From assembly GCA_038501625.1 (NCBI GenBank), contig JAZAYU010000005.1, positions 11,557,484 through 11,621,483 on the forward strand: a DNA stretch of 64,000 nucleotides, given 5' to 3'. The notes under the pieces were generated by a model that was not told the DNA's origin, did not search any database, and saw nothing but the letters and a program-made list of their open reading frames with translations. This document shows, one piece after another, positions 1-61,056 of the stretch. This stretch comes from Corbicula japonica. Lineage: Eukaryota > Mollusca > Bivalvia > Venerida > Cyrenidae. Position 1 is the stretch's first letter, and every line of letters begins with the position of its first letter. The position numbers were made by a program, and so were the translations under genes.

Positions 1-221
1 ATGTGGAAAGATGAGATCTGAAAAATTAAAACTGTTAACTTACAGTGCAATTTCAATTTATGGACCCCAAATACGGTGTTATACCAAGAGTAAGGTGCAT
101 TTAGAAATATCAACTCTATATATAAATGAATAAGTATTTTGTTGATGATCATATTGTGGAAGATTTATGTGATGATTCCTTGAGTATGTGATAAATATGC
201 AAATGCAATTCATTGACACTT

Positions 222-476
222 AACTCTTTACACCATAGATACACATTTTTTATGCATTTGCAACCAGTGTTAATTCAGATCAGCCGGTACATCTGTGCCT
301 TCTGATCAGGATCTTGACTGTTCACTTTTTATACTGAAATAACCTGAGTTCAATATAAAAAAATAAGTAAAAATTAAAGAATGTAGAAACTGATCAGATG
401 GCACAGATGTGCATGCTGCTCTGGATCTACACTGTTCGCCAATGCTTAAAAGTGAGTATATATGGAGGAAAGGGTT
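222..476. repeat. palindromic MITE, family A
   Basis: About 250 bases bounded by inverted ends of the form aac(c)ctttcctccat / atggaggaaagggtt, with inner inverted halves around gatccagatcagcc and ggctgatctggatc. It lies just upstream of the first CARMIL exon seen. The same family recurs at least fifteen times in the window. Confidence 0.8.
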
Positions 477-499
477 AAAATGATATCTGTGTTTTTTAG

Positions 500-20287: not shown

Positions 20288-22402
20288 TTATTTGGATCTT
20301 GATTTACACTTACGAGCCAGCAGTCTACATACATGCCATTTGGCTGTATTGTTCCTTTCTCTCACTTTCAATGACATCATGTAGCAACATAGAGCAGAAT
20401 TTATTCTATTCTCCTGTTCCATACATTGTCCTAAGAGATTTAATGCTGTCTCCCTGTGGCACAAGTTTGGATCAGTGTCAATTGTTCTGATCAAGTTGTC
20501 CAGGGCTTGCTTTTGTTTTGCTGGTCTGTGGAGCTGAGTGTACACCTTGTGCTGCAGAAAGTACAGGTATGGCACCGAGTCCACCACTGCCCAGTCCATC
20601 CAGTCATCATCTTCATCTCTGTATGGTTGGTCTTCTGCTGTTGATCTAAACATTTCAAACTTGAGCTCTTTAGGAACACAGTTTACCTGACAAGGCAAGT
20701 AAGTGACACAGAATGCTATGTTCTGTTTTACCACATCTTCATTCTTCTCATAAAGGGCTGTTTGAATGTCTTCTGAAACTGTCTGTCTATCTGCTTGAAT
20801 GCAACGACAAAGTGTCATAACCGGTGTTTGTGACAGGTGTATTCTAAGAGCATTCAGGATAATTTCGCATGTGACCAGATCTCCTGCACAGTACAGAGCT
20901 GATGCTAGCTTCACCTTGCCTGAGGAGATATCAGAGTTCATGCCAACAGTTAACCATGAAAGAGCTTTAGTAGATAAACCCTGAGAAAGCTGTATATCTT
21001 CAGATGCTATGATAGACCCTATTAGAGAACATAGAAAGGGTCCATAGAGACTGAAAGCCCTACGCTCTGTTGTACTGACGACAGTATGTGCCAGACGGTG
21101 TTTACATACATGAACAATTAGCATCTGATAAGCAGAGGCAAAATTTCTTGAAAGAAATACATGAAAGTTCTTAATGAGATTCACTAGGTTGTTAGCTACA
21201 GTTACATTGCTGAATGCAGTGATTAAGATATCATATGCAGACAGCAGATAAACATGTGATATTCCACCCGATTTAAAATGAAGAAGATCACCAAGATGAT
21301 CTATCTGTATACTCAGCAGTGATTGTCCTATGTTATCAGTCAGGCTGCACATGACATCTATAAGCTGACGTTTGACCTCTGCAGACAATTTACCTGCAAG
21401 CAGATTGTTCCTGGGTATCAAGAAATGGGGACAGTTTTCTGTCTGTATACAGTTCAGTAAAGATTGCAGACACTTACTTAACCATGTCAGTAAACTACTT
21501 TCATTCCATATACTGCTGTTTTCTGATTCTGCAATACAGTGAAATAAAATATTCTTACACATAAAAGTTGAAATGACCTCTCCAGATATGGGCTTCAAGA
21601 AAGTCTGTAAAATCATTTTCATAAGAATGTAACACCTCATCTGTGTTATGTTGATATTAAACATCAAGCATCTCTCAGCCAGAGAAGTAGATATTCTCCA
21701 CTCCAGGTCCTGGTTCACACATGTCCTACTGCTTACAGGAACTACAAAACATCCTTGTTCTGCTGAATACTTCTTCATTTCTTCAGTTGGCCAGCCACTC
21801 ATATTCTGCTGATGAAGCCAGGGATCAGCTTCTTTAGGCCAGGATGAACAGTGAAAGGCAATTACATAGTCTGTGTCATATTGGTCATGTCCTCTGGGTA
21901 TTGTGTGAGCAGGACCATTTCTAACCTCACCATTCTGTCCAATATATTCTTCAAAAAATGAATGTCTCAGCAGCACTCTTCCTCTGTTATCTGTGGTGTA
22001 ATGTTTACCATGGAAGTTTTTAGCAGAAAGAGGTGCATCATGTCTCGTTAGCTGTAGCAGACAATAGCATGGAGATGTTGTCTCATCCTGCACCATTAAA
22101 AACTTCGGTTTGTGAGGCAGATCATCCCACTGTGATAAGTCTTGTATTATCTTGAAGCAAGGGTCACATAAAAGGTAATCTACATCAGATTTCAGACCTT
22201 GGGTGGTTGATCCTTCACTTTGACTGCCAAAATTATATACTGATGTACCTCCTCCTAATTGAACTGAAGTTGTGAATAAAGTCTCGGCTAACATCCAGGC
22301 TCTTCTTCTCTTCAGTATCTTTGTCTTGTTTACTCCGATGTCATCGAGAACCTGGGACAGTTGCAGGGACAGGTTATGATAGTGCTCTGGTTGATTTGAC
22401 AT
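20288..22402 (-). CDS. cGAS-like receptor / Mab-21 family nucleotidyltransferase, copy 1
   Basis: Predicted 704 residues in one coding exon. The N-terminal half is a Mab-21/cGAS nucleotidyltransferase: GS motif in FGSQSEGSTTQG (residues 58-69), metal-binding D73 and D75 in SDVDYL, and the third acidic residue D178 in YDTDYVIAFHCSSWP, the strand that carries the last catalytic Asp in cGAS. The helical lobe follows (MRCYILMKMILQTFLKP; SLLTWLSKCLQSLLNC). No HxxxxCC zinc-thumb motif is seen. The ~300-residue C-terminal extension is helical and ends in a TPR-like pair (ETALNLLGQCMEQENR). Family members make cyclic dinucleotides after sensing nucleic acid; the ligand here is unknown. An in-frame ATG lies nine codons upstream (22429), but tattgtatcag at 22403-22413 is a good acceptor and the paralogue starts at the matching Met, so the start at 22402 behind a 5' UTR intron is preferred. 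Confidence 0.9.
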   Translation of the reverse strand: MSNQPEHYHNLSLQLSQVLDDIGVNKTKILKRRRAWMLAETLFTTSVQLGGGTSVYNFGSQSEGSTTQGLKSDVDYLLCDPCFKIIQDLSQWDDLPHKPKFLMVQDETTSPCYCLLQLTRHDAPLSAKNFHGKHYTTDNRGRVLLRHSFFEEYIGQNGEVRNGPAHTIPRGHDQYDTDYVIAFHCSSWPKEADPWLHQQNMSGWPTEEMKKYSAEQGCFVVPVSSRTCVNQDLEWRISTSLAERCLMFNINITQMRCYILMKMILQTFLKPISGEVISTFMCKNILFHCIAESENSSIWNESSLLTWLSKCLQSLLNCIQTENCPHFLIPRNNLLAGKLSAEVKRQLIDVMCSLTDNIGQSLLSIQIDHLGDLLHFKSGGISHVYLLSAYDILITAFSNVTVANNLVNLIKNFHVFLSRNFASAYQMLIVHVCKHRLAHTVVSTTERRAFSLYGPFLCSLIGSIIASEDIQLSQGLSTKALSWLTVGMNSDISSGKVKLASALYCAGDLVTCEIILNALRIHLSQTPVMTLCRCIQADRQTVSEDIQTALYEKNEDVVKQNIAFCVTYLPCQVNCVPKELKFEMFRSTAEDQPYRDEDDDWMDWAVVDSVPYLYFLQHKVYTQLHRPAKQKQALDNLIRTIDTDPNLCHRETALNLLGQCMEQENRINSALCCYMMSLKVRERNNTAKWHVCRLLARKCKSRSK

Positions 22403-22619
22403 TCTGATACAATAAGAATTTAATGTCATTGAAAGATATTATTTAATTTGATTTATTGAACATAATGTTTGCTTGTTTGATTTTAAACATATATGTTACC
22501 TTCAAAAACTGATTTGATAAATATTGAAGATTTTTCATTCAACAAAATAAAGAGAGATTCATCAGGGACCAACAATTTCCAGTATTTCATTGTTGCCCAC
22601 TGGGCAAGTAGAATTCCAG

Positions 22620-37780: not shown

Positions 37781-39871
37781 TTAACACATACAAGCTAACA
37801 GTCTACGTAGATGCCATTTGGCTGGATTGTTCCTTTCACTCACTTTCAATGACATTGTGTAGAATCTTATAGCAGTATTCATTCTGTTCTCCTGTTCCAT
37901 ACATTGTCCTAAGAGATTTAGGGCAGTCTCCATATGGCAAAGACCTTCATCAGTGGCTATAGTCCTGATCAGGTTGTCCAGGGCTTGCCGTTTTTCTGCT
38001 GGCCTGTTGAGCTGAGTGTACACCTTGTACTGCATAAAGTACAGGTATGGCATGGAGTCTACATTTGCACTGCTCATCCGGTAATCAATTTCACCTCTGT
38101 ATGGTTGGTCTAATGCTGTTGATCTAAACATTTCAAACCTTAGCTCATAAGGAACACAGTTAACCTCACATGGCAGATAACTGATGCAGCATGCCATGTT
38201 GTGTTGTATCACATCTTCATTCTTCTCATAGCAGGCTTTTGCAAAGTCTTCTGAATCTTTCCATGTATATGGAAAGCAACAACAAAATGACACAAACAGT
38301 GTTTGTGACAGCTTTATTCTTAGAGCCTCCAGGATAATTTCACATTTTTCTAGATCTCGGGCACAATACAGTGCTGATGCCAGCTTCAGCTTGCCTGAGG
38401 AGATATCTGAGTTTAGTCCCAAAGTGAACCATCTTAAAGCTTCAGCAGATACAACCTGAGCAAGCTGTATATCTTCAGATGCTATGACAGACCCTATTCT
38501 AGAACATAGAAATGGTACCCAGAGACTGATTGCCTTTCGCTCAAGTGTATTACCAATGCTATATACCTGGCAGAGACTTAAGACCTTTTCTTTGAAAGAA
38601 TCAATACAACACTTGGTGAAGCGCAGTAGAAAGAAAGCCACAAATTGAATGTTTCGTGAGCCTACTTTGATAGAGATATCATATGGAGTCTGTAGATAAA
38701 CATGTGATATTCCGCCTGCTTTAACATGAAGACGATTACCAAGATCATCTATCTGTGTTCTCAGCAGTGATTGCCCTATGTTCTCAGTCAGGCTGCACAT
38801 GACATCTATAAGCTGATGTTTGACATCTGCAGACAATTTACCAGCAAGGAGATTGTTCCCAGGTATCATGAAATGGGGACAGTTGTCTGTCAGTATACAG
38901 TTCAATAAAGATTGCAGACATTTACTTAACCATGTCAGTAAAGAACTTTCATTCCATAAACTGCTGTTATCTGATTCTGCAATACAGTAGAATAAAATAT
39001 TCTTACACATAAAACTGGAAATGGCCTCTCCACATTTGGGTTTCAAAAAAGTCTTTATAATCATTTTCATAAGAATGTAACACCTCATCTGTGTTATGTT
39101 GAGATTAAACATCAAGCATCTTTCAGCCATAGAAGTAGATATTCTCCACTCCAGGTCCTGGTACTCCTCCACACATGTACTACTGCTTACAGGAACTAAC
39201 AAACATCCTTGTTCTGCTGAATACTTCTTCATTTCTTCAGTTGGCCAGCCACTCACATTCTGCTGATGAAGCCAGGGATCAGCTTCTTTAGGCCACGATG
39301 AACAGTGATAAGCCAATACCACGTCAGAATCAGGTTGATTTGGTCTGTTTAGTCTTGTTGCAGCAGGACCATGTCTTACCCGGCCAGTTTGCAAAAAAGC
39401 CCCTACCAAAATTGAATGTCTTAGCAGCACTCTTTCACTATCATCTATGGTGAAATTTTGATTGTGGATCTCTTGGGCAGGAAGAGGGGCATCATCTCTT
39501 GTACGCTGTAGCAAGCAATAGCCTGGAGATGTTGTCTCATCCTGCACCATCACATACTGCTGCTTACCAGGGAGATGTTCCCACTCTGACCAGTCCTGTA
39601 TTATCCTGAATTCATTGATGCATGCAAGGAAATCTACATCGGAGTTTAGACCTTGGGTAGAAGATCCCTCACTTTGACTGCCAAAACTATATGTCTTTGT
39701 TGAATGTCCTCTGAACTCTGGTGTTATGTGAAAGAAAGTTGTGTTTAAAGTCTCATGTAACATCATGGCTCTTCTTCTCTTCAGTATCATTGTCTTGTTT
39801 ACACCGATGTCATCGAGAACCTGGGACAGTCGCTCTGACAGGTTCCGATAGTAGTCCGGTAGTCTGAACAT
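37781..39871 (-). CDS. cGAS-like receptor / Mab-21 family nucleotidyltransferase, copy 2
   Basis: Predicted 696 residues in one coding exon, closely similar to the 20288-22402 protein along nearly its whole length. Catalytic features are kept: FGSQSEGSSTQG with GS at residues 64-65, D78 and D80 in SDVDFL, and D183 in DSDVVLAYHCSSWP. It has a six-residue longer stretch before the GS motif (HITPEFRGHSTKT). The part from about residue 410 to 460 (KVGSRNIQFVAFFLLRFTKC) is much less like copy 1 than its surroundings. The C-terminus ends in the same TPR-like helices but is shorter. The ATG is directly preceded by taattaacaga, an acceptor site, so a 5' UTR intron is likely. Flanks resemble those of copy 1, consistent with duplication of a block larger than the coding region. 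Function as an active sensor enzyme is inferred from intact residues. Confidence 0.9.
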   Translation of the reverse strand: MFRLPDYYRNLSERLSQVLDDIGVNKTMILKRRRAMMLHETLNTTFFHITPEFRGHSTKTYSFGSQSEGSSTQGLNSDVDFLACINEFRIIQDWSEWEHLPGKQQYVMVQDETTSPGYCLLQRTRDDAPLPAQEIHNQNFTIDDSERVLLRHSILVGAFLQTGRVRHGPAATRLNRPNQPDSDVVLAYHCSSWPKEADPWLHQQNVSGWPTEEMKKYSAEQGCLLVPVSSSTCVEEYQDLEWRISTSMAERCLMFNLNITQMRCYILMKMIIKTFLKPKCGEAISSFMCKNILFYCIAESDNSSLWNESSLLTWLSKCLQSLLNCILTDNCPHFMIPGNNLLAGKLSADVKHQLIDVMCSLTENIGQSLLRTQIDDLGNRLHVKAGGISHVYLQTPYDISIKVGSRNIQFVAFFLLRFTKCCIDSFKEKVLSLCQVYSIGNTLERKAISLWVPFLCSRIGSVIASEDIQLAQVVSAEALRWFTLGLNSDISSGKLKLASALYCARDLEKCEIILEALRIKLSQTLFVSFCCCFPYTWKDSEDFAKACYEKNEDVIQHNMACCISYLPCEVNCVPYELRFEMFRSTALDQPYRGEIDYRMSSANVDSMPYLYFMQYKVYTQLNRPAEKRQALDNLIRTIATDEGLCHMETALNLLGQCMEQENRMNTAIRFYTMSLKVSERNNPAKWHLRRLLACMC

Positions 39872-42720: not shown

Positions 42721-43220
42721 NNNNNNNNNNNNNNNNNNNNNNNNNNNNNNNNNNNNNNNNNNNNNNNNNNNNNNNNNNNNNNNNNNNNNNNNNNNNNNNN
42801 NNNNNNNNNNNNNNNNNNNNNNNNNNNNNNNNNNNNNNNNNNNNNNNNNNNNNNNNNNNNNNNNNNNNNNNNNNNNNNNNNNNNNNNNNNNNNNNNNNNN
42901 NNNNNNNNNNNNNNNNNNNNNNNNNNNNNNNNNNNNNNNNNNNNNNNNNNNNNNNNNNNNNNNNNNNNNNNNNNNNNNNNNNNNNNNNNNNNNNNNNNNN
43001 NNNNNNNNNNNNNNNNNNNNNNNNNNNNNNNNNNNNNNNNNNNNNNNNNNNNNNNNNNNNNNNNNNNNNNNNNNNNNNNNNNNNNNNNNNNNNNNNNNNN
43101 NNNNNNNNNNNNNNNNNNNNNNNNNNNNNNNNNNNNNNNNNNNNNNNNNNNNNNNNNNNNNNNNNNNNNNNNNNNNNNNNNNNNNNNNNNNNNNNNNNNN
43201 NNNNNNNNNNNNNNNNNNNN
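42721..43220. other. assembly gap, 500 N
   Basis: Exactly 500 N, a conventional placeholder length. True distance and content are unknown, and the order of the two flanks depends on scaffolding. Confidence 0.99.
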
Positions 43221-46811: not shown

Positions 46812-46978
46812 GTACATATAGATATACACATTTGTTGTATACAGTTCATCAGACAAACCCAATTATTTCATACATTCGCAATTATCACCTTTATAACGGC
46901 CCTCATACAGTAAAGGCAGATTGATAAACTTCGGTAGCCAAGTATTTTTTGATTGTTACACTTCACAGCGACACAACA

Positions 46979-47953
46979 ATGAACGAAAGTAAATGTTGGG
47001 ATAACAATACGCAATTTTATTCAGTTGATCTTCAAGCAGCAACCGTTTTGTTTTCAGTAAGATTACTGCTTCTTGTGTTGGAAGTGTTAGGTAACATTTT
47101 ATCACTTATTGTATGGAGTAAGGGACACAGGTGTAAGGACCTTTCATGTTCTTTGAACTTCAAGATTCTTGCTGGAACTGACATTATTGTATTAATAATT
47201 TGCATCGGATTAGATACAACTGAATATTTTTTGTATGAGTCTGTAGAAATAATCGCATTAGTCCGAGGTTTTTGTGATGACTTTGGACCACAGTTATCGC
47301 CATGGATTATAGTAACTTTGACATTAGAAAGAACAAAAAGTATTCTGTTTCCACTAAAATTCAAAGAAAAACCTTCAAAATGTCGGACTTTGATATCGTT
47401 TGGGTGTATTGTTGCCATACTTGCTTCGCTGAATGTGATCTGGGTATTTTCAGAGCGTGACGATTGTGGATTTATATATACTCCCGAGTCTATTGATCGT
47501 ATTTTAAAAATACAAGCAGCTTTGAATACATGGATCTTGTGCATATTGCCATTCATTTTGATAACGTTTTGTAACATTCTGGTAGGCATTCAATTATTGA
47601 GCATGCGCGAAATAAAAACAGCGACCGGAAGCAGACGGAGAAATGGGGTATTAGCAACATTTACTGTTCTTACAATTGTAACGGGACTGTTGCATTGTGT
47701 ATCATCAATTCCGAAAATGCTTTTCAGTATTGTATGGTATAACCGGCTTGTTCTAGGGAAAGGATATGACCCACTCGTGTTTGATTATATGTTTTGGGGA
47801 GATTTCGCAAATACAACACAATATTTAAACAACAGTTTGAATTTTTACGTTTACTGTTTGGCGGGACGGGAGTTCAGAAAGGATTTAAAGGTGATAATGT
47901 GTCATGTTGCCGAAATTCGAACACCAATGACACAAAACATACATCTGAAGTAG
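46979..47953 (+). CDS. class A (rhodopsin-like) GPCR, probable peptide receptor, intronless
   Basis: 324 residues with seven hydrophobic segments. Extracellular N-terminus with sequons N2 and N10; TM1 with GNILSLIVW (N39); TM2 with the conserved Asp in LAGTDIIVLI (D68); C99 and C163 as the expected disulfide pair; ERT (117-119) in place of DRY after TM3; TM7 ending NNSLNFYVYCLAG, a variant of NPxxY; then an FRKDL start of helix 8. TM6 has no CWxP motif (VLTIVTGLLHCVSSIPK). The first ATG in the frame is 46979; the frame is open ten codons further upstream but has no ATG there. Molluscs have many intronless peptide receptors of this kind. The ligand cannot be told from sequence; similarity to FMRFamide-type receptors is only an impression. 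Confidence 0.85.
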   Translation: MNESKCWDNNTQFYSVDLQAATVLFSVRLLLLVLEVLGNILSLIVWSKGHRCKDLSCSLNFKILAGTDIIVLIICIGLDTTEYFLYESVEIIALVRGFCDDFGPQLSPWIIVTLTLERTKSILFPLKFKEKPSKCRTLISFGCIVAILASLNVIWVFSERDDCGFIYTPESIDRILKIQAALNTWILCILPFILITFCNILVGIQLLSMREIKTATGSRRRNGVLATFTVLTIVTGLLHCVSSIPKMLFSIVWYNRLVLGKGYDPLVFDYMFWGDFANTTQYLNNSLNFYVYCLAGREFRKDLKVIMCHVAEIRTPMTQNIHLK

Positions 47954-50587
47954 TTGAGTGTGTAACATAATCATTTGTTGATCAAAAAAGTCAGTCAGGC
48001 TATCTAAAGCCTCGCACCTGCGATACACAAAGAATGGTGAACTACTGTAACAAGATTTTTTCTAACAGTGTTGCCGGAATCAGTAATTACATTTTTAGGA
48101 TAGTGAGTTTTCTGTTACAGGAATTTTTTCTCTAACAGGAATTATAATTTACACTTTGTTAGTTCATCTGAGAAATGAGTACACATCAAAATTTACGCAT
48201 ATCATATAAATGACTTGTTGGGACAAGTGTGAGGTTGGTCTCTCTAAAATCAACAAGTGAAAATTGTTATGCCACTGACCGTTGAAAGGCGGGTGTTTTT
48301 TGTTAAATATTTGTGGTTTCTCTTTTGAAATTTAATCATTTAATAAACCTACGCTCTCCGTTTCTCTCTACCTTTTCTCTGCGAGGAAAGCTGTATTTTC
48401 TAAGTGTGGCTAATCTTAATATGCATTTATTACTCTTTAAATACTTCTAACATGTTATGTTTTACTTTTGAGTCAGTAATAATTGAATAATTATACATAA
48501 AATCAAATGCTTTCGTTATTTTATATATGCGTCTACATGATTATCTAGAAAAAAGCCATCTTAAGCCTAACTGGAATATAATATTTTTTTGCATTTAATT
48601 TTTCTTAGATAATATGATTTGAGAAACGATGCATGCCTTGCTGTCCTTTTGCACAGTAACTGTCTTGTTTATTGTTGCTAGAAAAAATACGTTTCTTAAC
48701 GACGATTGCTTTTGTTTCTGTTTTCACAATGTTATGAAATATACATGTACACCGTTTCCATGAGATCAAATTTGCAAACTCAGTCATTGAACAAAGTTGA
48801 TTAAAAAGTATTATTTAATAAAGAAAATATCTCCCTTGTTGAAAGATTACGCAATTTAAATTCCCTTGAAACAAACAACCCTTTAAAGGATGTTAACGGT
48901 TCCCATGTAAAATTCATAATATCTGTATCGGAAAATACAGGCAAAAAGATATGAGGCAAATAACACAAAAAGACCGACATATGTTGTTCTTCAGCCAAAA
49001 GATCGTCCAGAAATGTTCAATAAAATTCGCTAATTTTAAATTCATCTTACTTCGTATACATGTTTTGCATGGAATGCGACTCGTGTCAGACCCTTTGTTT
49101 GTTACACTTATCATAAATTCTCGAGGTAATATATTAATTATATTATTAAATATTACTAGCAGCGTTTTAATAATATTTCATTCTATTACATGGCATCTGC
49201 TTGTGAGATACGTGTTTGTTTGACTGGATAAATTCATGGGACATTTCAGCTTTGTGAATGCTTACAGGAAATGAGGACCGCAATTACATATATTTAGTAT
49301 AGAAAATCAAAAAAAAACAGAAGGTTGACAGAGTACCTGGAAATGGCAGATCATTAGTTTCTAGTATCGTATCCGAATGGTGAAATTGACAATGTCACTT
49401 GATATAATGAAAACAGAAATATTGTATGTGCCGAGTCTGAAGCAGGAGAATTGCATTGTCGGTCAATTTTGAAGCAATTACAACCTGAACAAATTGGCTT
49501 TGTTTGGTCCAGATTGGATAATAACTAGATTATTTTACCCGCACTTTGTTTGTTCAAGTATTAAGTATTTTGATGAAGACCACTTTAGTAAGTTTATACA
49601 CAGTTATAGGTACATCTCAACCCATTCCATGAAAATATTCGGTATAAAATCGTAACCCATTTTCTTTTCTTTTCAGGAATGCATATTCTTTTGAGTTGTC
49701 TATTTAATAATATATTATTAGATCTCGTATTTGGATATTAAAGAATCGATCTATGCTATTATTTAATAGCTAAGATGGGATATTTTTAACAACTTTATTT
49801 ACTTTTTCTAAGAGTTTATGAACTTGGGGAATGTTATAAAAACACAAACTCGAGCTGTTTCTTTTATCAATGTCATCGTGTTCTTGCTGATTTGACTCGA
49901 GGGGCTTTGATCTCTGCATGTTCATTGAGTACCTGCCCTTTTGCTTTACAAACAGAACCTGCAATATTTTCATATTTGTCGTGTTCGATGGCTTTCAAAG
50001 TTCCTTTTTAATCTATTTCAATATCACAGTAGCGTTGCTTGTGCCGTTATTAATGACGTCCTTTGAAGGTCGTTGAACACGATACTTGTATGTTAAAAGT
50101 ACTTCTAAAATTACAATTGTTTTAATATTTTGGTCAGTTTCGAGATGGGTGGTTTCAATTTCCCAGCCAATATAGATTTGGATATTATTCAATCACCTCA
50201 TGGATATACTTCCTGTTTGTAGTTTTTTTTTTAATTTTGCCGTTTGCGTTGTCTGTGATATGCAGGATTTATATTCTAAGATCCCCTCTCAAAATTAAAT
50301 TCTGTTTAGTTCCGCTCATTGTTTTCTTTTCGTTTTGGGCAAATCCATTCTTTTATCTGGGAGACCAAAAGCCGCTGAACATAGAACGGTATTAATATGA
50401 AAATAACCGCATTGAAGGTTCCATGTCCACCGCCATATGCCGCCATCGTTTGGGATGGTCAAAATTGTATTGTTTATTAGTGTAAATATTCAGTTGCGCT
50501 CAACCCGGGGCTATGCGGCGTAGGCAGATTATTTTCGTCTCCTTGGTTTCGCTAAAACGAACCTGACTTATTAGTTATTAAAGGGTA
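47954..50587. other. AT-rich intergenic DNA, no gene seen
   Basis: Contains the right copy of a direct repeat at about 48210-48440 (acaagtgtgaggtt..., ctgaccgtt..., ctctctacc...) matching about 45695-45960 on the other side of the GPCR. Small open frames at 48605-49223 and 49770-49973 overlap on both strands and show no domain. Confidence 0.45.
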
Positions 50588-51430
50588 GGTATAAACACCG
50601 AAATGGAAATTTTACGGCGAAATGGGCGAAATGGAAATTCTACGGCGAAATGGAAATAAAATTATACTTTAGGACATTTTAAGAAGAGATTTAATATTAA
50701 AAACATTTAAATAGATATGCATTGTACATAAATGTTAAATTTCAACAAGTTCTGTCTATCTATACCGTAGTTATTGCAGTTTATAATGTCGTATTCATAT
50801 TTCTATGTACCGCGAAATGGAGATCTAGGACGTCGAAAGGTAAAAAAAAATCTTCCAGATACATTTAATAAATAAGAAATACACATTTTATCAATTGAAT
50901 GATACTAAATGTATTTACATTTGCCAAATGTCTTTTTCAATATCATTTTAATTACCGTACCGATTCAGATTGTTGTTGTAGTTTATTTTCCATTTCGCGG
51001 ATCAGCGAAATGGAATCATCCAACGGCGAAATGTAAACGAATAAAAAGAAGGCTTTAGTTGAGATTTATAATTAATTCGCAATTTTATAATTGTTATTTA
51101 AAGTCCTAGCTTTTTACCACGAAATGGAAATTTAGGACGCCGAAATGGAATTTAAATACGTAAAAGTGCACTGAAAATTATAGAGGACAGTATGTAAGAG
51201 ATAATAAATTAAAGGATCGGATAATAAATACTTAAATTAGCCAAATGTATTTTTATACATTTTATTTTCCGTACTTATTTTAGACAACTAATTGTTATTT
51301 TGCGTTTCTGTGCATAATGTTTAAGCTATTTCTATGAATTTATTTCTTACTTTATCGTCCTGTGTTACAAGTCAAATGTACCGCGAAATGGAAACGGGAT
51401 GTGGAAATATATGACGGTAATTACGGTATA
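50588..51430 (+). repeat. left terminal/subterminal repeat region of the transposon
   Basis: Motif copies of the form cgcgaaatggagat...gacgtcgaaagg at 50599, 50618, 50627, 50646, 50814, 51007, 51119, 51140 and 51384, plus one inverted copy at 50991. Such arrays often serve as transposase binding sites; that role is inferred here. Confidence 0.8.
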
Positions 51431-51791
51431 TAAAATATAATATATATATATAATAATAGATATTCTTTAACTTTTATATTAATATTTTTATTTTATTCAT
51501 TCGAAAAGTTTTTAAAAACAATTAACATGTGATACATTTTATGTTACATGACAACAATGACAGCAGTAGCCCCTAGTATGATTGCCGCCATAAAAATAAA
51601 TACATTTTTAATAATTTGAAAATATCAGAACAAATTATGTATTTAACATGTCATTAAACATTTAATACATGTACATTCAAAATATATATACAAAGCATAA
51701 ATGGCGAATGTGTGTACCCCCCATTAACCGATGGCAATGTGTGCATATTTAATGCAAAGGCTGGTCACCACGTCCTATCCTACGTTCTTTT

Positions 51792-54700
51792 CTAATTTGC
51801 AATAAGCTGACGCTTAGATTTCGGTGTTCGTGATCTTTCTGAACGCTTTCTTTTGCGTTGATGTGGTTTTTTTCCGGCAGAGGGCGTTTTCATAACCGTT
51901 CTGTTTCCTGCTGTAGATGTTATAACATTTGGTTTTTCTCTCCCCTTGTCACTGAAAAACCTCTTTTCTCTGGCTTCCCGTTGTGATTGAGACATGTCGG
52001 TCCACACATCTAAATCTACCAGATGATGATGGAAGTTTGGGTGTAATCTAAAGTTGCCCCTGTTTCTAATGGCCCGACATCTTTCGGTAAAATCTCCTTC
52101 TATAATAGTGTGTACCGTTTTTATAAATTTTGGCATGTCTTGCGCTTTCCATTTTATTGCAGCCTTCAAAATATGGTTGACACTTTCACTGTTGTTGTTT
52201 GTCCATTTCACTGGAATTTTTCCTTGCTTTGCTGGTTCCATTACGTGCTGTTGGAGGAGTGGAATTAATTTGTTTTCAAAATATCCTTTGAATTTTTTTT
52301 CACAGTTGCAGTCTTTTGTTTCAATAAATTCGAGAATTCTTCTAACGCGTGTGTCATATGTGTCCGTGTCTTCACTGTAAATTATTCCGTCTTCCTCAAA
52401 AATTGCTTTAATGATATACTGGCGGTCATTAAGCGGGTACCCTACGTTATCTTCAAGGTATTTGCTGGTATTTTGCTTAAGATGACGTGTACATAAAACA
52501 TGCGTGCACCCCGGTAAGCATCGGTGTATTGCATTTTTAAAGGATAATTCTTCGTCTGTACCGATTGTCAAATTGCTGATTTCCTCTTCTGTAAGGTTGT
52601 CTGCTATTTCATGCAGGAATGTGCTTATTGCTTTTGTGGTTGAACTGCAGTGTATAAAAATCGGCCCAAAGCAAAGTGGATGGTCACCGGTCGTCCTCCG
52701 TAACACCGATAAATCTTTATATACTGTAGGGGTAACGTGGAAATCCCCTAAATTGTATGTCTTATCCATTCCTAGCACGGATCCTCCTGGTCTACAACAG
52801 AAGCGTTTAACGTCATTTATTTGCTGACTTGTGAACAGTGTAACCAGTGGATTTTTTATGTCTTTCGAATGTTTTACACTGTATACTAATGGGTGAGTAT
52901 GTACCATCTCTTCTACTGCGATGACGTGATCGGCAGCGTTGCCGGTAGATCCGCAGAAGTCTTTGGCGGCTTTGTCTAGTGCATATTTGAAATTTTTCAA
53001 CTGTCTATTATTTCTCATTTTTTCATGCTCATCGGTTTGTGTTGTATTTATTTTCCGCTCGACGTCGCTGACAGTATCGGATTTTAGCATTTCTTTAAGA
53101 TTTTTTTTCACATGTGACTTTGTCTTTATGTATTTCTGGTTGTTGTCACTATATTTTACGTTGCCATGATAAGATCTTGAGGGGAATACACCTATATACT
53201 CTACAACAGCCACGTTCATCGGCAGGAAAGACATGCTAGGTGGCACCTTGGCAAACCATGTTATCCTTCGTTTGAATTGTTCTTTTCCCGAAGTTGACGC
53301 TTTCAGTGTTTGATAAATCCTGTGTACTTTAAAAATGTCAATTCCATCTGCTTTTTCTTCTATCGGTACATACACGCGTTTTCCCTTGCACATTTTCTCG
53401 CTACAATACAATCCATCCTTCAGCACTACGGATATAAGTTTATTATTCATTTCAACAAAATTTTGAATTGGGCATGCTGCCTTATTCCAGGCTCCGCAGT
53501 TATCCCAGAATTCCGACTTACTTCCGTTTGTCCTGTTCTGCATATTATTTTCATTGTTAACAATAAAGAACATGCCATCTTTTCGTGCTGTTGGGATTTC
53601 ATTTATCACTGTATATGGACCTTTGAAAAGATTTAACAGTTCGGGCATATCCATAAATTTCTTCAATGGTCCTGGCACAAATGTTTCCTCTGATATAATG
53701 CTTCCAGTGTCCACTAAACTGTCGGGTTCCATCACACTGTTTCCTGTGGCAAATGAAGAGTTGTCTGAATCATAATCAACGTAATTACAATCGGGGGACC
53801 TTAAAGATTCCTCGAGAATGGTTGACAGTTGTCTAATGTCTTGGATATCGGAGGACATTTCTGAAAGTGTTGAGATATCACCTACCCCGTCGACATCGCC
53901 AGAAATAATAGAATCTGTTGTTTGAGATACTGGTTTGGCCGGCGAAGTTGTCGTTTGTATTGTTCTTTGCTTACGGTCCTTAGAACATGCTTTTGTTGTT
54001 GTTGTTGTTGTTTCGTGCACTGTTTTACTTTTCTTAGTAGTTTTTGTTGGATTTATTGGCTCTTCAAGATCTGGCAAGGATTCTAGTGCAACATCAAGAC
54101 ATTGGTATCTATTGGGAGATGTTAAAGCTGGTTCTGTATGCGGCACTTTTCCGATAGACGGCGATTCCAAAATGTCGTTTACTTTAACGGAATTACGACG
54201 AACAGCAGTCACAACTAAAGGAACAAAATGGTTTGGTCTCCATTCTGTTCCAGATTTAATTCTCCCACTCACGATTTCGTTTCTCTTTGGTACAACGGTA
54301 CTAGTCCACATAATGGTTATATTGCCATTTTCCGGATCAGCGAATGGTGGTCTGAATGTTGTATTGTAAGCTTTAAACGCAAAATAGCGCGTGCCATTGA
54401 TTGCGGGGTACACACATTCTATAGGAATATTCAATAAATTCGACAATGCTAGAATTCTGAAGGAAGAAGAATATGAATTTTGTTGAGCACAATTGACGGT
54501 GTCCTTATCCAAATCATCGGACAGCAACTGCATTTTGTCATACAATCGATGATGAACAATTTTGTGTCTGTTTATGACCATCTCAATGCTACATCTGTAC
54601 CGGAGTTCTATACTCCTCGATTCGTCTCCACACAGACATATTGACACAGAATTGAATAAACAGTTCCCATCGCCAGTACTGACAACAGCCGTTTTGTCAT

Positions 54701-54854
54701 TTGAGTGGTAGTGGTCAAGGATAAAGTTAGACACAAGATCATGCTCGTTACTTTCAAAATCCTGGTGCAGTTCATTAGCCACCGGAACATCCACAAGAAA
54801 CAGCTTTTCCCTCTCAACAGCAGTTTTGAGTTTCTTGTAGCCGTGATTAGCGGC
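51792..54854 (-). CDS. OTU-domain MULE transposase, main exon
   Basis: Large open exon. Numbered from the in-frame Met at 54863 (1023 residues): OTU cysteine-protease domain about 35-220 with STGDGNCLFNSVS (D65, C68) and the partner His in RPNHFVPLV (H212); a low-complexity Thr/Ser/acidic linker about 270-395; an uncharacterised Cys-containing part about 415-560; then the Mutator-like DDE core with D700 (GMDKTYNLGDFHV), D770 (IGTDEELSFKNAI), CTRH (791-794) and E893 (TNNNSESVNH); and a basic tail (KPHQRKRKRSERSRTPKSKR), probably nuclear targeting. All catalytic residues of both enzyme parts are present. The Met at 54863 is followed at once by atgtttcag, a good acceptor, so the exon probably begins at 54854 (GCC, phase 0) and joins the PHD exons upstream. 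The OTU part resembles vertnin (VRTN) in order of motifs (ELRYR..EM...RH; ITIMW). It lies inside matched TIRs. Confidence 0.92.
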   Translation of the reverse strand, partial: AANHGYKKLKTAVEREKLFLVDVPVANELHQDFESNEHDLVSNFILDHYHSNDKTAVVSTGDGNCLFNSVSICLCGDESRSIELRYRCSIEMVINRHKIVHHRLYDKMQLLSDDLDKDTVNCAQQNSYSSSFRILALSNLLNIPIECVYPAINGTRYFAFKAYNTTFRPPFADPENGNITIMWTSTVVPKRNEIVSGRIKSGTEWRPNHFVPLVVTAVRRNSVKVNDILESPSIGKVPHTEPALTSPNRYQCLDVALESLPDLEEPINPTKTTKKSKTVHETTTTTTKACSKDRKQRTIQTTTSPAKPVSQTTDSIISGDVDGVGDISTLSEMSSDIQDIRQLSTILEESLRSPDCNYVDYDSDNSSFATGNSVMEPDSLVDTGSIISEETFVPGPLKKFMDMPELLNLFKGPYTVINEIPTARKDGMFFIVNNENNMQNRTNGSKSEFWDNCGAWNKAACPIQNFVEMNNKLISVVLKDGLYCSEKMCKGKRVYVPIEEKADGIDIFKVHRIYQTLKASTSGKEQFKRRITWFAKVPPSMSFLPMNVAVVEYIGVFPSRSYHGNVKYSDNNQKYIKTKSHVKKNLKEMLKSDTVSDVERKINTTQTDEHEKMRNNRQLKNFKYALDKAAKDFCGSTGNAADHVIAVEEMVHTHPLVYSVKHSKDIKNPLVTLFTSQQINDVKRFCCRPGGSVLGMDKTYNLGDFHVTPTVYKDLSVLRRTTGDHPLCFGPIFIHCSSTTKAISTFLHEIADNLTEEEISNLTIGTDEELSFKNAIHRCLPGCTHVLCTRHLKQNTSKYLEDNVGYPLNDRQYIIKAIFEEDGIIYSEDTDTYDTRVRRILEFIETKDCNCEKKFKGYFENKLIPLLQQHVMEPAKQGKIPVKWTNNNSESVNHILKAAIKWKAQDMPKFIKTVHTIIEGDFTERCRAIRNRGNFRLHPNFHHHLVDLDVWTDMSQSQREAREKRFFSDKGREKPNVITSTAGNRTVMKTPSAGKKPHQRKRKRSERSRTPKSKRQLIAN

Positions 54855-55312
54855 CTGAAACATATAACTTTCATGATAAAATTGTTACAATTATTTATTT
54901 TTTGTTTATTAAATGCCGTCTACAGTGCAGTCATTAGTGCACGTTCATCGATACATAATAAATTTGCACAAATAAATGTTATTAATGTATCTTTATATTG
55001 CATATGTAACCACACGTAAGATCTGTAAAATATAGCTAGATTAACAAAGTGGTAACAAAGTGTTATTTATTTTCCAAAGGCATAAATTTTAATATAAATA
55101 ATTAATTTTATGAAAAGATTATAATTATTCAAGAAAACGAAACGAAAGAATTTCTTTTTTGATTAATTTGAATTCTAATTGATTTTTTTAAAAGGGAAAT
55201 AATGACGTCCACACTGTCACAGACGAAAAGTAATGTACGCTGCTTTTATTTCAGCAGGCTTATGATCAAATATTGTGGTCATTTTCAATATTTATCTCTT
55301 TATTTTTTAAAC

Positions 55313-56301
55313 CTGCTGAAGTCGTCCCGATCCCATCAGGAAGTCGAACGATCCATCATCTTTGGAGCGGCAGGTGATGCAGATGTAAGCAGCCGATACT
55401 TGTGACCATTGCTTCCGCAAACCTACATCTATGTTCTGACACTCGTAGTGGAACCATGTTGTACATGACTGAAAAAAGAAGATATATTTAGCTAAGATAA
55501 TTACATGGAATTTATTACGCTAAGCATTTTGCAATTTCCTTACAATTTTCATAGCAGTAAAATTACATATAACTATGAAATGTGTACTCTGACAGGTTCA
55601 CAAGGAACAATTAACGTGGTATTATAGTTTACAAATTGCTTATTGTCCGAAAAAAATATAATAGAAAAATACGTTTAGAAAACAACAGTTCAGTCGACAG
55701 AACACAACTAGCCAGCGTGTATTTTTGCGACGGAGATGCCTGTAAAAATCCGAATTTCACATACGGACATGTTTAAAACACGGCCCGGTCGTAAAATTAA
55801 GTGCTTCTCAAACCAACCAAAATCAAGTATTGTATTTTTATTATGACATGTACTGAAACATGTTCACTGGTTTATCAAATAAAAGTCAATACTGTTTGAA
55901 CTGAATTAAACCGGAAAATGCTACTAGATGTTATGTATGCATTGTTTATTGGTGTACCTACTTTAAATTTTTGAACAAATAGGCTAATGTGACTACGGAA
56001 ATTTTGGTTTTTCGAGATTTTAAAGAAATTCCTGTACACTGTCACTGAAACAACTTCGCACCACTGCAAAGTTTCATTGAACGACATATTGTCATTAGAG
56101 AGATTTTGATATTACGCGGACTGGAGGACTTTTGTTCTGATATTTTTCTTTATTATGTTCTAAATGGAAAAGCATCACCTTTTTTAACAAGTTCACTCTG
56201 CACATAGATGAACATTAAACCAAAGAATAACTTACCTCGCAAAGAATGCAATCCGTTCTGCAATTTTTCAAGCACACGGAACAAGCGGACTTCTTCGTCA
56301 T
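55313..56301 (-). CDS. two 5' exons encoding a PHD finger, predicted to join the OTU-transposase
   Basis: Exon 1, 56301-56236, starts ATG and encodes 22 residues (MTKKSACSVCLKNCRTDC then ILCE) up to a strong donor gaG|gtaagt. Exon 2, 55468-55313, follows acceptor ttcttttttcag and encodes 52 residues with SCTTWFHYEC and AAYICITC. Joined in phase 0 they form a PHD-type C4HC3 zinc finger (CSVC ... CESC-TTWFH-YEC ... CITC). Neither exon alone is a domain, so the match across the junction supports both. Exon 2 ends at CAG|GTTTAA, a weak donor in phase 0, matching the phase-0 acceptor at 54854; reading on without splicing gives Val then stop. The full model is 22+52+1020 = 1094 residues. PHD fingers read histone tails, which could steer integration; that role is inferred. 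Confidence 0.72.
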
Positions 56302-56949
56302 TTTGATCCTTAGCACGTTAACGATTTGTATAATTAAGTAATAATCAGAACTATTTTGTTTAATTAGTTTAAATAACGATCAGTATGATATACTTTGCTA
56401 TGTTTGTAATTGCTGTTCAATAGAACTTAACGAAACTTCTAGTAGTAATTTTATTTATTTCAGTTCTTGAAGTTATCTTACTTGACGTATACATAGTATC
56501 CAACCAACGAATCTATTAGAAATCTGATTATATAATTAGCGGATGACCGCCGGCACGTGCCATATGCTCAACACTTAGATTCATGTCGCGTTTGCACCAC
56601 AGGAGTTAATACCGTGCTGTGATAAGTGTGGCATATGACGAATTGCCTGATATATCTGGTTAATGAATTGTAGAAGTAACGGTTGTTAAAAAATTAACTG
56701 CAAGCTAATTTAACTTCCAGGAGTAGCAGAAATTAATCAATTTATTCTTCTTTATTGTAAAAAAAATAATTAAGTCATAAACAGAACAGAAATTTTTAGA
56801 ATTATACAAATAAACATTATCTTGTGATACAACATGTTCATTATAACATAACATGGGTAATATGTACATTTCTTTCTTATAACTTTTTGATGATATTGAA
56901 ATCAAATTAGAGTACTAATTCAACAATAAATATAAATATTTATTTTGTT

Positions 56950-58010
56950 TCCTTGTTTTGCTACTTTATTGAAAAGCACTGACTCGCTGTCTGAAGAAAA
57001 ACCAAACGAGTGACCGCACTTATGAAATTAGCACTGTGTGGCTAAAACAATTAATAAGGATTTCTATATTTTTCTGTTCTTTCAATTAAACATATTTTTA
57101 ATCAGTCCAGAATTTAAATAGATATTCATCTTTTACAGTTATTTCTTCTTTTCTGGCGTTCAAATTAGCGATCTCGTTTAAAAAATTAAGATTGCGCGTC
57201 ATAAATCTCAATAAAATAAGATGATTAATGTTTTCAAATGTATTTTTCCAAATCTTTCATTAAACAAATATGTTTAATCCAAATAGGTCAATAAATAGAA
57301 AATATATGCCTGCTTTCGCAGTTGTTTCGCGATATTTTCAGGCGCTGACATTAGCGATCGTGGACGGTTAGTGAATTTCTCATTTCTAGATGAACTTAAT
57401 ATTATACAAAAAGACAAGACATCTTATGTTATTTTTCCTGATATTTCGTTTTAAAACAGAAATTGCATTAAATGAATTACCATGCCAGGGCTTAAATTAA
57501 ATATATGCCCGCTTTTCGCAGTTGTTTCGCGATCTTTTCAGGCGCTGACATTAGCGATCGTGGACGGTTAGTGAATTCCTCATTTCTAGATGAACTTAAT
57601 ATAATACAAAAAGACAAGACATCTTATGTTATTTTTCCTGATATTTCGTTTTAAAACAGAAATTTTTAAGCTCTGTGTTTCAAAATTACTTCATCTTGTC
57701 ATGAACTAAGATTAGCGATCGCGCTCAAAGAACTCGTAATTTCTGTACAGAAATCTTAGCTAAATATAAAAAAGACAATTTAGTTAGCGTAATTTTTACT
57801 GATCTTTCATTTTAAATAAGAAATTTCGAAATCAGTAAAAAAATATGCTTTCATTACGCATGTATTTCTTCTTTTTGAGTGGTCAAATAGTTATTGCATT
57901 AAATGAATTACCATGCCAGGGCTTAAATTCTAATGATATATGATGATTTAATTTTTGTTAATGTATTTTTCCTGATCTTTCATTTAAAAAAGATATTTTT
58001 GAGAATCGCT
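56950..58010. repeat. tandem ~199-base repeats inside the transposon
   Basis: Two nearly identical units start at 57308 and 57507 (tgcc.gctttcgcagttgtttcgcgat, gctgacattagcgatcgtgg), spaced 199 bases. Older units with ttagcgatc and tttcctgat.tttc are seen at about 57150, 57710 and 57900. No coding sequence. It lies upstream of the transposase gene and may be part of its control region or a replication/transposition signal. Confidence 0.75.
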
Positions 58011-58521
58011 TAAAAATTTAAAAAGATATGCCTATATTTCTTAATTATGATATGTGACTGAGTAGCTTGTTTTTTGTTCCATTTCGACGTTCTTAACCTC
58101 CATTTCGCGATACGAAGGAATCTGAACACGACGCTATAAACTGCAATAACTACGGTATACATGGACATATATTGTTGAAAATTAAGATGTATGTATAATG
58201 AATACCATTTCAATTATTTTTGTATTAACTTTCATAGAAAATGTGTAACTTAAGTGTTTTTTATTTCCATTTCGACGTCCTTAAATCTCCATTTCGCGAT
58301 ACATAGAAATATGAAGATGAAATTATAAACTGCAATAATTACCTTATAAATTGACAGAACTTGTTGAAATTTAACATATATGTACAATGAATATCTATTC
58401 AAATATTTTAATATTAATTTTCATTAAAAAAATGTTCTTAAGTTTAATTTTATTTCCATTTCGCCGTAGAATTTCCATTTCGCCCATTTCGCCGTAGAAT
58501 TTCCATTTCGGTGTTTATACC
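57990..58521 (-). repeat. right terminal/subterminal repeat region of the transposon
   Basis: Read on the minus strand it gives the same order as the left end, but with two tandem copies of the ~190-base unit that contains taccgtagttattgcagttt and cgcgaaatggag. The outer 65 bases mirror the left terminus almost exactly. Confidence 0.82.
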
Positions 58522-59156
58522 TTCCGGTAGCGTCGTGTTTACATCAGCTGTCGATATCCAATATGGTAGAGCTAGGTAGATTTTACCGTGTTAAATCAGT
58601 TTGAAAGTTTAACTGCCGATATGAACGATTGCGTGAATGGATTTTCTTTATAGATGTCTCATCTGATGCAGAAAATTACAAGCTTTCTGTACATGTTAAA
58701 ATTATGCAGGTAAAACCCAATTTTTAGCCATAAATCGTGCCCAACGGATTTCGTTGGGCATTACACAACTTTTCCACCACAGTTTTGGTCTATTTTGGTT
58801 TGTACTCTGAAGGGGGATATTGACCCAGCAAAAAAATAGCACAATATCCACCTTTTAGAGTACAATTATTTGGACTACATGCAAGCTTGCTCTATATGAC
58901 AAATTGTTTAATTTTGTGGTTGTTTGCAAATCAGATTTCAATGTTTAAATTTTAATTTGGAACCTTAAATTTGTCACAAAATCTTAAGAACAGCACTTTT
59001 CAATCCAACAAAAGATTCAACCATTTAGTGGTATCTTATTTCAAAATCTTCTCATATTCTGCAATTTAATCACTTTTGTTAACAGAGCATTCAATCCATG
59101 AAATAGCTGTTTTTATTTAAGTTTTAGGAATGGATATGTTAGCAGAACAAGTCTTA

Positions 59157-59589: not shown

Positions 59590-61056
59590 ATGGCAGATCA
59601 GAGCAGAGAGTCTGATGAATGTATGGATATTTCTTGTGATTTGTGTAAAGAACATCATAACACAAATGTTCCAGCCCAAGGATTTTGCCCCGAATGTGTG
59701 GAATACTTGTGTTCAACATGCTTGATATACCATCAAAGATATATGCGGACCCATAAACATCAAGATGAAAATCAAATGCCAAAGGATATTTGCACAGACA
59801 CTTGTGATAAGCATGTAAACTTACCAGTAAAGTTTTACTGTGAGAACTGTAATGATTTCATCTGTATGCAATGCAAAAGTGACAAACACAACAATTGCAC
59901 AAAATGTTCATTTTTACCACTTCTTGCCCAAAATATTGAAAACAGTGAAGACTTCAGAAAGTTTGAAAACCGACTAGAGCACTTTAAAACAGCACTTGAT
60001 GAAACTAAAGTGTCACATGACAAAACACAGGAAAAAATTGAGCAGTATAAAAGGGAAGCCAGTACTGCAATGGAATTCCAAAAACAAGAGCTGCTAGAAG
60101 ATTATGGTGATGCAACCAAACAATTTGAACAAACAATTGAACAAACATACAACAATGACAAAGCTACATATAATTCTGTAACTAAAGAACTGAATTCTCT
60201 AGCTGATGAACTTAAAACATTATTTAATGACATCAGTATTCTGAAAAACTGTGTACAGAGATGTAAACTGTTTATGAAAATGAAAAAGACAGTCTCAATA
60301 ATTGATCACCTGGATAGAAAACTTGCAAGTGTAAAAGATGAGTCTGCACTTACTGTGACTGTGTATAAGTACAAACCAGAAGTATCCATTCTGAAAAGTC
60401 TATGTGTAGGAGAAATGGACATCAATGGAGATACTATTATTTCAGATGATTGTGAAAGAGTCAGTTTACAACAAAAATGGAATGAAATAGAACAAAAATC
60501 CAAATGTGCTGAACAGATGTCAAAAGAAGCTGAACAGAAGTCAAAAGAAGCTGAACAAAGGTCAAAAGAAGCTGAACAGAAGTTAAAAGATGCTGAACAA
60601 AGGTCAAAATTAGCTGAACAGAAGTTAAAAGATGCTGAACAGAAGTCAAAAGAAGCTGAACAAAGGTCAAAAACAGCTGAACAGAAATTAAAAGAAGCTG
60701 AACAGAAGTCAAAAGAAGCTGAACAGAAGTCAAAAGAAGCTGAACAAAGGTCAAAAACAGCTGAACAGAAATTAAAAGAAGCTGAACAGAAGTCAAAAGA
60801 AGCTGAACAGAAGTTAAAAGAAGCTGAACAATGGTCAAAAACATCTGAACAGAAGTTAAAAGATGCTGAACAGAAGTCAAAGGAAGCGGAACAAAAGTCA
60901 AAGAAAGCTAAACAGAAGTTAAAGAAAGCTAAACTAATGTCAACGGCAGCAAGAGAGCTTGTAAGTACAGAAGAAGATACAGATGAAGAAGAACATTGTA
61001 ATGATTATAGAGTAAGCAATAGGAGGTATAGAGGTGCAAAGAGATCAGACAGATAA
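59590..61056 (+). CDS. RING-less double B-box, coiled-coil (TRIM-like) protein with 7-residue repeats
   Basis: 488 residues in one exon; an in-frame TGA at 59569 and the acceptor-like ttttacccag before it support the ATG at 59590. B-box 1: CDLC (16-19), CPEC (33-36), CSTC (41-44) with His at 48-57. B-box 2: CDKH (72-75), CENC (84-87), CMQC (92-95), KHNNC. No RING finger precedes them. A coiled-coil region covers about 115-250. From about residue 300 to 450 come some twenty copies of a heptad of the form AEQKSKE / AEQKLKD, encoded by 21-base DNA repeats; Leu or Ser alternates at one core position and Ala holds the other, as in an extended coiled coil. It ends in an acidic then basic tail with no B30.2 or NHL domain. 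Such RING-less TRIM-like genes are greatly expanded in bivalves, with presumed scaffold or immune roles; this one has no proven function. Confidence 0.9.
   Translation: MADQSRESDECMDISCDLCKEHHNTNVPAQGFCPECVEYLCSTCLIYHQRYMRTHKHQDENQMPKDICTDTCDKHVNLPVKFYCENCNDFICMQCKSDKHNNCTKCSFLPLLAQNIENSEDFRKFENRLEHFKTALDETKVSHDKTQEKIEQYKREASTAMEFQKQELLEDYGDATKQFEQTIEQTYNNDKATYNSVTKELNSLADELKTLFNDISILKNCVQRCKLFMKMKKTVSIIDHLDRKLASVKDESALTVTVYKYKPEVSILKSLCVGEMDINGDTIISDDCERVSLQQKWNEIEQKSKCAEQMSKEAEQKSKEAEQRSKEAEQKLKDAEQRSKLAEQKLKDAEQKSKEAEQRSKTAEQKLKEAEQKSKEAEQKSKEAEQRSKTAEQKLKEAEQKSKEAEQKLKEAEQWSKTSEQKLKDAEQKSKEAEQKSKKAKQKLKKAKLMSTAARELVSTEEDTDEEEHCNDYRVSNRRYRGAKRSDR
60489..60940 (+). repeat. 21-base coding minisatellite in the B-box gene
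   Basis: About twenty-one units of the form gctgaacagaagtcaaaaga, with runs of identical units suggesting recent expansion. The unit length keeps the reading frame. The matching long antisense open frame is a by-product of the repeat. Confidence 0.9.

Follow-up and report, generated by a model that had tools for sequence, protein, structure and literature searches.

A MULE transposon of Corbicula japonica with a predicted transposase combining PHD, OTU protease and DDE domains

Element and gene at the locus

The window analysed here is a 64,000-nucleotide stretch of the genome of the bivalve Corbicula japonica (assembly GCA_038501625.1, contig JAZAYU010000005.1, positions 11,557,484 to 11,621,483 of the forward strand). 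It contains a transposon bordered by compound terminal inverted repeats (TIRs), with one predicted transposase gene on the minus strand (Table 1). A preliminary description of this DNA had proposed an apparently complete element whose transposase fuses a PHD finger, an OTU protease and the DDE core of MULE transposases.

Concerning the ends of the element, the outer arms of the TIRs (50584-50680 and 58429-58525) are 95% complementary across 97 nt and the inner arms (50700-50827 and 58282-58409) 89% complementary across 128 nt, giving the long TIRs of a MULE. Two units of a 28-bp minirepeat based on CGAAATGGAAATT are present at each tip. When a 19-nt tip was searched for with up to 3 mismatches, it was found in the 64-kb window only at the two element ends, the mean in 100 shuffles being 0.00. 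GGGTA precedes GGTATAAACACCG at the left tip of the window copy, and TTCCG follows CGGTGTTTATACC at the right. The nine other copies described below start with GGGTA (GGGTT in L039) before GGTATAAACACCG or GGTATATACACCG and carry CGGAA at the opposite end. The inverted repeats reported earlier for 50588..58521 are real and matched, but these copies place the true ends 5 bp further out on each side, at 50583 and 58526.

The gene was predicted to consist of three exons with GT/AG sites and phase-0 joins, encoding 1094 amino acids. The earlier view of a single minus-strand gene was correct as to number, but the gene is most likely split, with the PHD finger in exons 1 and 2. An open reading frame (ORF) of 1023 codons spans 51792-54863, and its ATG at 54863 falls within the last predicted intron. 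The predicted exon junction, RLQQ-AANHG, resembles RLRQAANKG in a Mya arenaria protein (P0016). At two other loci, L050 and L069, PHD and OTU lie inside one unbroken ORF.

The domains were then examined with Pfam and predicted models. The PHD finger on the joined exons 1 and 2 (E 1.6e-5) and the OTU domain (E 2.8e-7) both exceeded their family cut-offs. The OTU model, with a predicted local distance difference test score of 79.7, displayed structural matches to OTUD1, OTUD3, A20 and VCPIP1, and would represent an OTU fold with the catalytic Cys and His of a deubiquitinase. The MULE match (E 1.5e-5, 25.8 bits) was slightly under its cut-off of 27.6; the predicted model of the DDE region matched IS256 and hAT transposases, in agreement with a DDE core of the MULE/IS256 type. 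The Pfam results and the residues themselves bear out the proposed single transposase gene with PHD, OTU (Cys and His intact) and MULE DDE core: D65, C68, H212, D700, D770, CTRH and E893 are all located in the ORF as first described. A beta-rich region conserved in the alignment, with strands in the predicted model, lies between OTU and DDE. No Pfam family matched it, and FLYWCH matched nowhere in this protein even with E values up to 1 allowed. In the relative P0047, the FLYWCH domain (E 6.4e-8) is found next to OTU and MULE. The region may be regarded as a candidate end-binding domain.

Table 1. Features of the transposon, in window coordinates.
Feature	Position	Strand	Description
Whole element	50583..58526	.	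7944 bp; ends GGGTAGGTATAAACACCG...CGGTGTTTATACCTTCCG; placed by the 9-bp target duplications that directly flank 9 other copies
Left TIR, compound	50583..50827	+	28-bp CGAAATGGAAATT..GGCG minirepeat x2 and 128-bp subterminal block
Right TIR, compound	58282..58526	-	
Subterminal block, right end, about twice in tandem	58077..58467	.	Period 189, 2.1 copies, 79% matches; from tandem-repeat search and alignment
200-bp tandem repeat, 5' side of gene	57300..57664	.	1.8 copies, 96% matches
Exon 1 (predicted)	56236..56301	-	Start codon and first half of PHD; GTAAGT donor, phase 0
Exon 2 (predicted)	55313..55468	-	Second half of PHD; CAG acceptor, GT donor, phase 0
Exon 3 (predicted)	51792..54854	-	OTU, linker, beta-rich domain, DDE, basic C-terminus, stop; TTTCAG acceptor immediately before 54854
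OTU domain	54210..54692	-	ORF residues 58-218; Cys68 codon 54660-54662, His212 codon 54228-54230
Conserved beta-rich region	53154..53618	-	Residues 416-570; between OTU and DDE, where P0047 carries FLYWCH
DDE catalytic region	52149..52784	-	Residues 694-905; D700 52764-52766, D770 52554-52556, CTRH, E893 52185-52187

Copies of the element in the host genome

As the preliminary description had suggested, copies with the same paired ends were sought, using the left end as query against the 1.07-Gb host assembly. Among 90 candidates there were 40 scored matches, 20 of which could be joined into 10 head-to-head pairs, including the window copy. Besides the window copy, nine copies in this genome carry both element ends. 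Exact 9-bp target duplications were present at one fixed offset in eight of the nine (CTTACGCAC, GTTTTTTTG, TTATTTTTT, CATATAGTT, CCGGGTAAA, TAAATAGAA, CTTTGAAAT and TGTCACACT), and in the ninth the duplication (GGTCAAAAC) was shifted by one base. As a control, flanks from different loci were compared, and agreed on average at 2.47 of 9 positions with a maximum of 6 (n=90). The element ends and the 9-bp duplication are established by these other copies. Target duplications of MULEs are given as ~8-11 bp, usually 9, in PMC6446971.

At seven loci (L009, L010, L011, L013, L015, L016 and L017), the transposon end sequence was found within a common longer flank. This flank is another dispersed repeat that contains or has borrowed the transposon end.

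Several copies provided information on movement. L031 is located on the same contig as the window copy, in the same orientation and ~0.56 Mb away. It retains two parts, which match the window copy with 99.8% identity across 3415 bp and 99.6% across 771 bp; the central part that encodes PHD and OTU is missing, and L031 has a target duplication of its own. The near-identity and the separate duplication indicate that this copy moved recently. In their larger collinear blocks, L032 and L033 show 93-97% identity to the window copy; both carry one and the same deletion junction (element 3170/5800), at two target sites whose duplications differ, and the deleted form was therefore probably mobilised at least twice. 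The transposase for this deleted form was presumably supplied in trans. The window copy looks autonomous.

The occurrence of the PHD finger was surveyed in 69 loci with a profile built here that included the window sequence. Six loci from the transposase search (L042, L043, L052, L058, L066 and L068) were matched with E below 1e-6, and the end-sharing copies L037 and L038 with E 3e-6.

Relatives of the transposase and comparison with known transposons

Three protein searches retrieved 50 proteins, whose domains were scored with profiles built from some of them. OTU was found in 44, DDE in 31, OTU together with DDE in 25 and PHD in 6, and all three domains in P0023, P0025 and P0038. The preliminary description had considered that the OTU might never be linked to the DDE elsewhere; linkage was found in 25 of the 50 proteins. 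Named sources of relatives include Mercenaria, Ruditapes, Sinanodonta and Mya, as well as the nematomorph Gordionus (P0044), whose OTU matched our profile (1.7e-16) and had no Pfam match. One OTU-MULE protein, P0040, is filed under a metagenome-assembled genome of the bacterium Sedimenticola, and probably derives from contaminating animal DNA. The Mya gene model P0016 joins an Exo_endo_phos_2 domain, of the endonuclease-reverse-transcriptase type, to PHD and OTU, probably through a merged annotation.

We then compared the conservation of the individual regions. Identity of P0002-P0008 to the window protein was 45-59% in the OTU (partial in P0006 and P0007), 52-63% in the DDE and 14-26% in the linker following the OTU; in the more distant P0017 the values were 32%, 38% and 13%, respectively. 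This variable linker contains a motif, LSTIxEE, in the majority consensus (ORF residues ~330-350, window ~53810-53875, minus strand). Residues and distances were analysed in 20 sequences, picked because they contain these domains. The OTU Cys was retained in 18 of the 18 sequences covering it, and the His in all 20. Distances in the OTU and the DDE were correlated with an r of 0.852 over 18 sequences, a value reached in none of 5000 permutations, a count that serves as a guide and not as a strict probability, as the sequences share descent. The correlation favours one old, jointly inherited fusion over repeated capture. As judged from this comparison of sequences, OTU and DDE core have stayed together through a long period of divergence. 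With conservation about equal to that of the DDE, Cys and His kept and distances tracking one another, the protease is probably an old part of the transposase and under selection.

The fusion had been called unusual at first, which proved too strong. PMC2836005 had already reported OTU domains from Ginger1 elements and Helitrons and Ulp1 from Mutators, and PMC6446971 an OTU from the Hydra MULE MuDR-6_HM. MuDR-6_HM, placed in group 14 in Table 1 of PMC6446971, is listed with one ORF and with 'Ovarian Tumour Gene' among other motifs/ORFs; its row, on which the comparison is based, gives no zinc finger, TIR or duplication length and does not mention PHD. Rehavkus, likewise compared by its description in the same source, has a PHD finger, 9-bp target duplications, TIRs of 26-400 bp and repeats close to one end. 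Its row does not mention OTU, and its hosts are Arthropoda and Annelida. The window protein would share the PHD finger if exons 1 and 2 are spliced as predicted. Rehavkus has a minisatellite before the 3' TIR; longer tandem repeats lie here near the right end, on the 5' side of the gene. Ginger1 elements, present in Hydra and the mollusc Aplysia, combine a DDE transposase with OTU or Ulp1 and have TIRs of 44-270 bp, and in Ginger1-9_HM a PHD is listed together with Ulp1 (PMC2836005). Their core is Gypsy-integrase-like and their protease C-terminal (PMC2836005), whereas the window element has a MULE core and an OTU on the N-terminal side. Up to E 1, the window protein was matched by the Pfam MULE family but by none of the integrase families.

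A further group of animal MULEs, Phantom, was reportedly first described by Marquez and Pritham in 2010. Phantom elements are listed in PMC6446971 with TIRs that are absent or 18-613 bp long, duplications of 8-10 bp and sometimes a FLYWCH, the domain found in P0047; as noted, FLYWCH did not match the window protein up to E 1. The Ulp1 Mutators (PMC2836005) and the OTU Helitrons or Helentrons (PMC2836005, PMC6431247) also tie a protease of the ubiquitin family to a transposition protein, but in them the protease is of the SUMO type or a rolling-circle replicase replaces the DDE. A published description of PHD, OTU and MULE in one transposase was not found among the matches listed, and OTU, PHD and proteases are absent from the main texts on arthropod MULEs (PMC13359780) and on transposons of bivalves (PMC10294476). 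As far as these sources extend, OTU-bearing MULEs and PHD-bearing MULE-like elements have precedents, and the combination found here appears to be a variant.

The remainder of the window contains other features. Two minus-strand ORFs of ~700 amino acids (20288-22429 and 37781-39871) have a Mab-21_C domain and are similar to one another by eye; we take these Mab-21-type ORFs to be of the cGAS-like-receptor kind. A B-box ORF (59590-61056, plus strand) with a long degenerate AEQKSKEAEQ repeat lies ~1 kb from the right end of the transposon, and a rhodopsin-type G-protein-coupled receptor ORF is found at 46949-47953 (plus strand; Pfam 7tm_1 slightly under cut-off). Positions 42721-43220 are a run of 500 N, either a gap in the assembly or sequence that was withheld. 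The left flank at 50280-50527, stopping 55 bp short of the element, is a repeat of very high copy number, with 7027 first-look candidates, of which 40 were scored at 88-100%.

Possible role of the OTU domain

Taking the evidence together, the best explanation, to which we assign a probability of about 0.6, is a recently active MULE whose transposase carries a cis-acting, active deubiquitinase. Its parts differ in strength. The element is almost certainly a MULE cut-and-paste transposon, and PHD, OTU and DDE are very probably produced as one protein. The OTU is likely to be catalytically active, and we lean towards its activity being required for efficient transposition. Conservation of the OTU to about the same degree as the DDE suggests that the element uses the protease for movement or survival.

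In such an element, the spliced 1094-residue transposase would grip the element ends through the beta-rich domain, the RNase-H-fold DDE core would cut and join the DNA, and the PHD finger would tether the transposase to histone tails. The OTU would work in cis as an active deubiquitinase, its most likely use being to deubiquitinate the transposase-DNA complex, so that this escapes degradation and unfolding until the cut has been made and the gap handed over to repair. Ubiquitin carried by neighbouring histones or by repair proteins would come next in likelihood as substrate. We would favour a role in protecting the transposase complex or controlling its turnover, with the removal of ubiquitin from chromatin or repair factors not far behind; that the transposase itself, rather than chromatin or repair factors, is the main substrate can be put forward only tentatively.

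A number of observations weigh against this explanation. Among the DDE proteins, 6 of 31 lack an OTU by profile, 19 of 44 OTU proteins lack a DDE, and PHD went undetected in 22 of the 25 proteins with OTU and DDE. The missing domains could be due to incomplete gene models or to small exons lying apart. The detection of PHD in only 3 of 25 lowers our estimate for a single protein. Pfam scores for PHD in P0016, P0023 and P0025 are also under the curated cut-off. In the host genome, deleted copies without PHD and OTU did move, and the two domains are therefore dispensable in cis; this is compatible with supply in trans and does not in itself demonstrate that they are needed. No second intact full-length copy was seen among the 45 scored of 1108 candidates. 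Of the 7944 element positions, the C290 copy spans 1-7573 (94-96%), but it contains stops and lacks the right end (last ~370 bp). The ratio of nonsynonymous to synonymous substitution rates within the genome was uninformative (1.06 for PHD and OTU between L050 and L069, with 16 changes only). At D65, 14 of the 18 sequences covering it have Asp and 4 have Asn, so this residue is not essential; the Cys motif is broken in L057. Finally, the target duplication of MULE length seen in the other copies is absent from the window copy, whose flanks, GTTATTAAA and GTAGCGTCG, agree at 2 of 9 positions. Of the apparent completeness first proposed, the ends and the gene stand, but not the duplication.

The window copy may be chimeric, derived from two copies, or may have lost a flank. 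We consider the odds about even that recombination between two direct copies, and not a single insertion, produced it, in which case its completeness would be partly accidental; this is independent of the question of function. All nine other pairs have a duplication (one base-shifted), and L031 provides a nearly identical copy in the same orientation on the same contig. On the other hand, flank loss or an assembly error would give an identical picture.

As for the OTU, its target could instead be chromatin or the break-repair response. The PHD finger would recruit the protein to modified nucleosomes, and the OTU would deubiquitinate histones or repair factors at the donor or the target site, and in this way open up the chromatin or direct the repair of the gap. 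PHD and OTU co-occur in this family, and the authors of PMC2836005 propose that OTU/Ulp1 may activate downstream repair factors in transposition. We regard this as possible but doubtful. It is improbable that the OTU is a captured scaffold, catalytically dead or ubiquitin-binding, with no protease function. The Asn at D65 and the broken motif in L057 would fit such a scaffold, as would the frequent uptake of foreign DNA by MULEs described in PMC6446971. Against it, Cys and His are retained throughout the chosen sequences while the linker varies freely, and the correlated divergence of OTU and DDE is unlike that of a recent capture. Some viral OTUs cleave polyproteins, and the long variable linker with its LSTIxEE motif offers a possible cleavage site, but we hold it quite improbable that the OTU splits the transposase into PHD/OTU and DDE parts.

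Returning to the cis-acting deubiquitinase, a wider interpretation, of a deep animal MULE lineage built on an obligatory deubiquitinase, with histone-guided local deubiquitination required for transposition and the OTU controlling transpososome turnover, seems unlikely at present. Ubiquitin and SUMO proteases are known from several unrelated transposons (PMC2836005), and no functional test was found in the literature passages. The element described here has a protease conserved about as well as its catalytic core, defined ends, target duplications and nearly identical young copies. Whether a transposon needs a deubiquitinase of its own is therefore a question that can be answered directly in this family.

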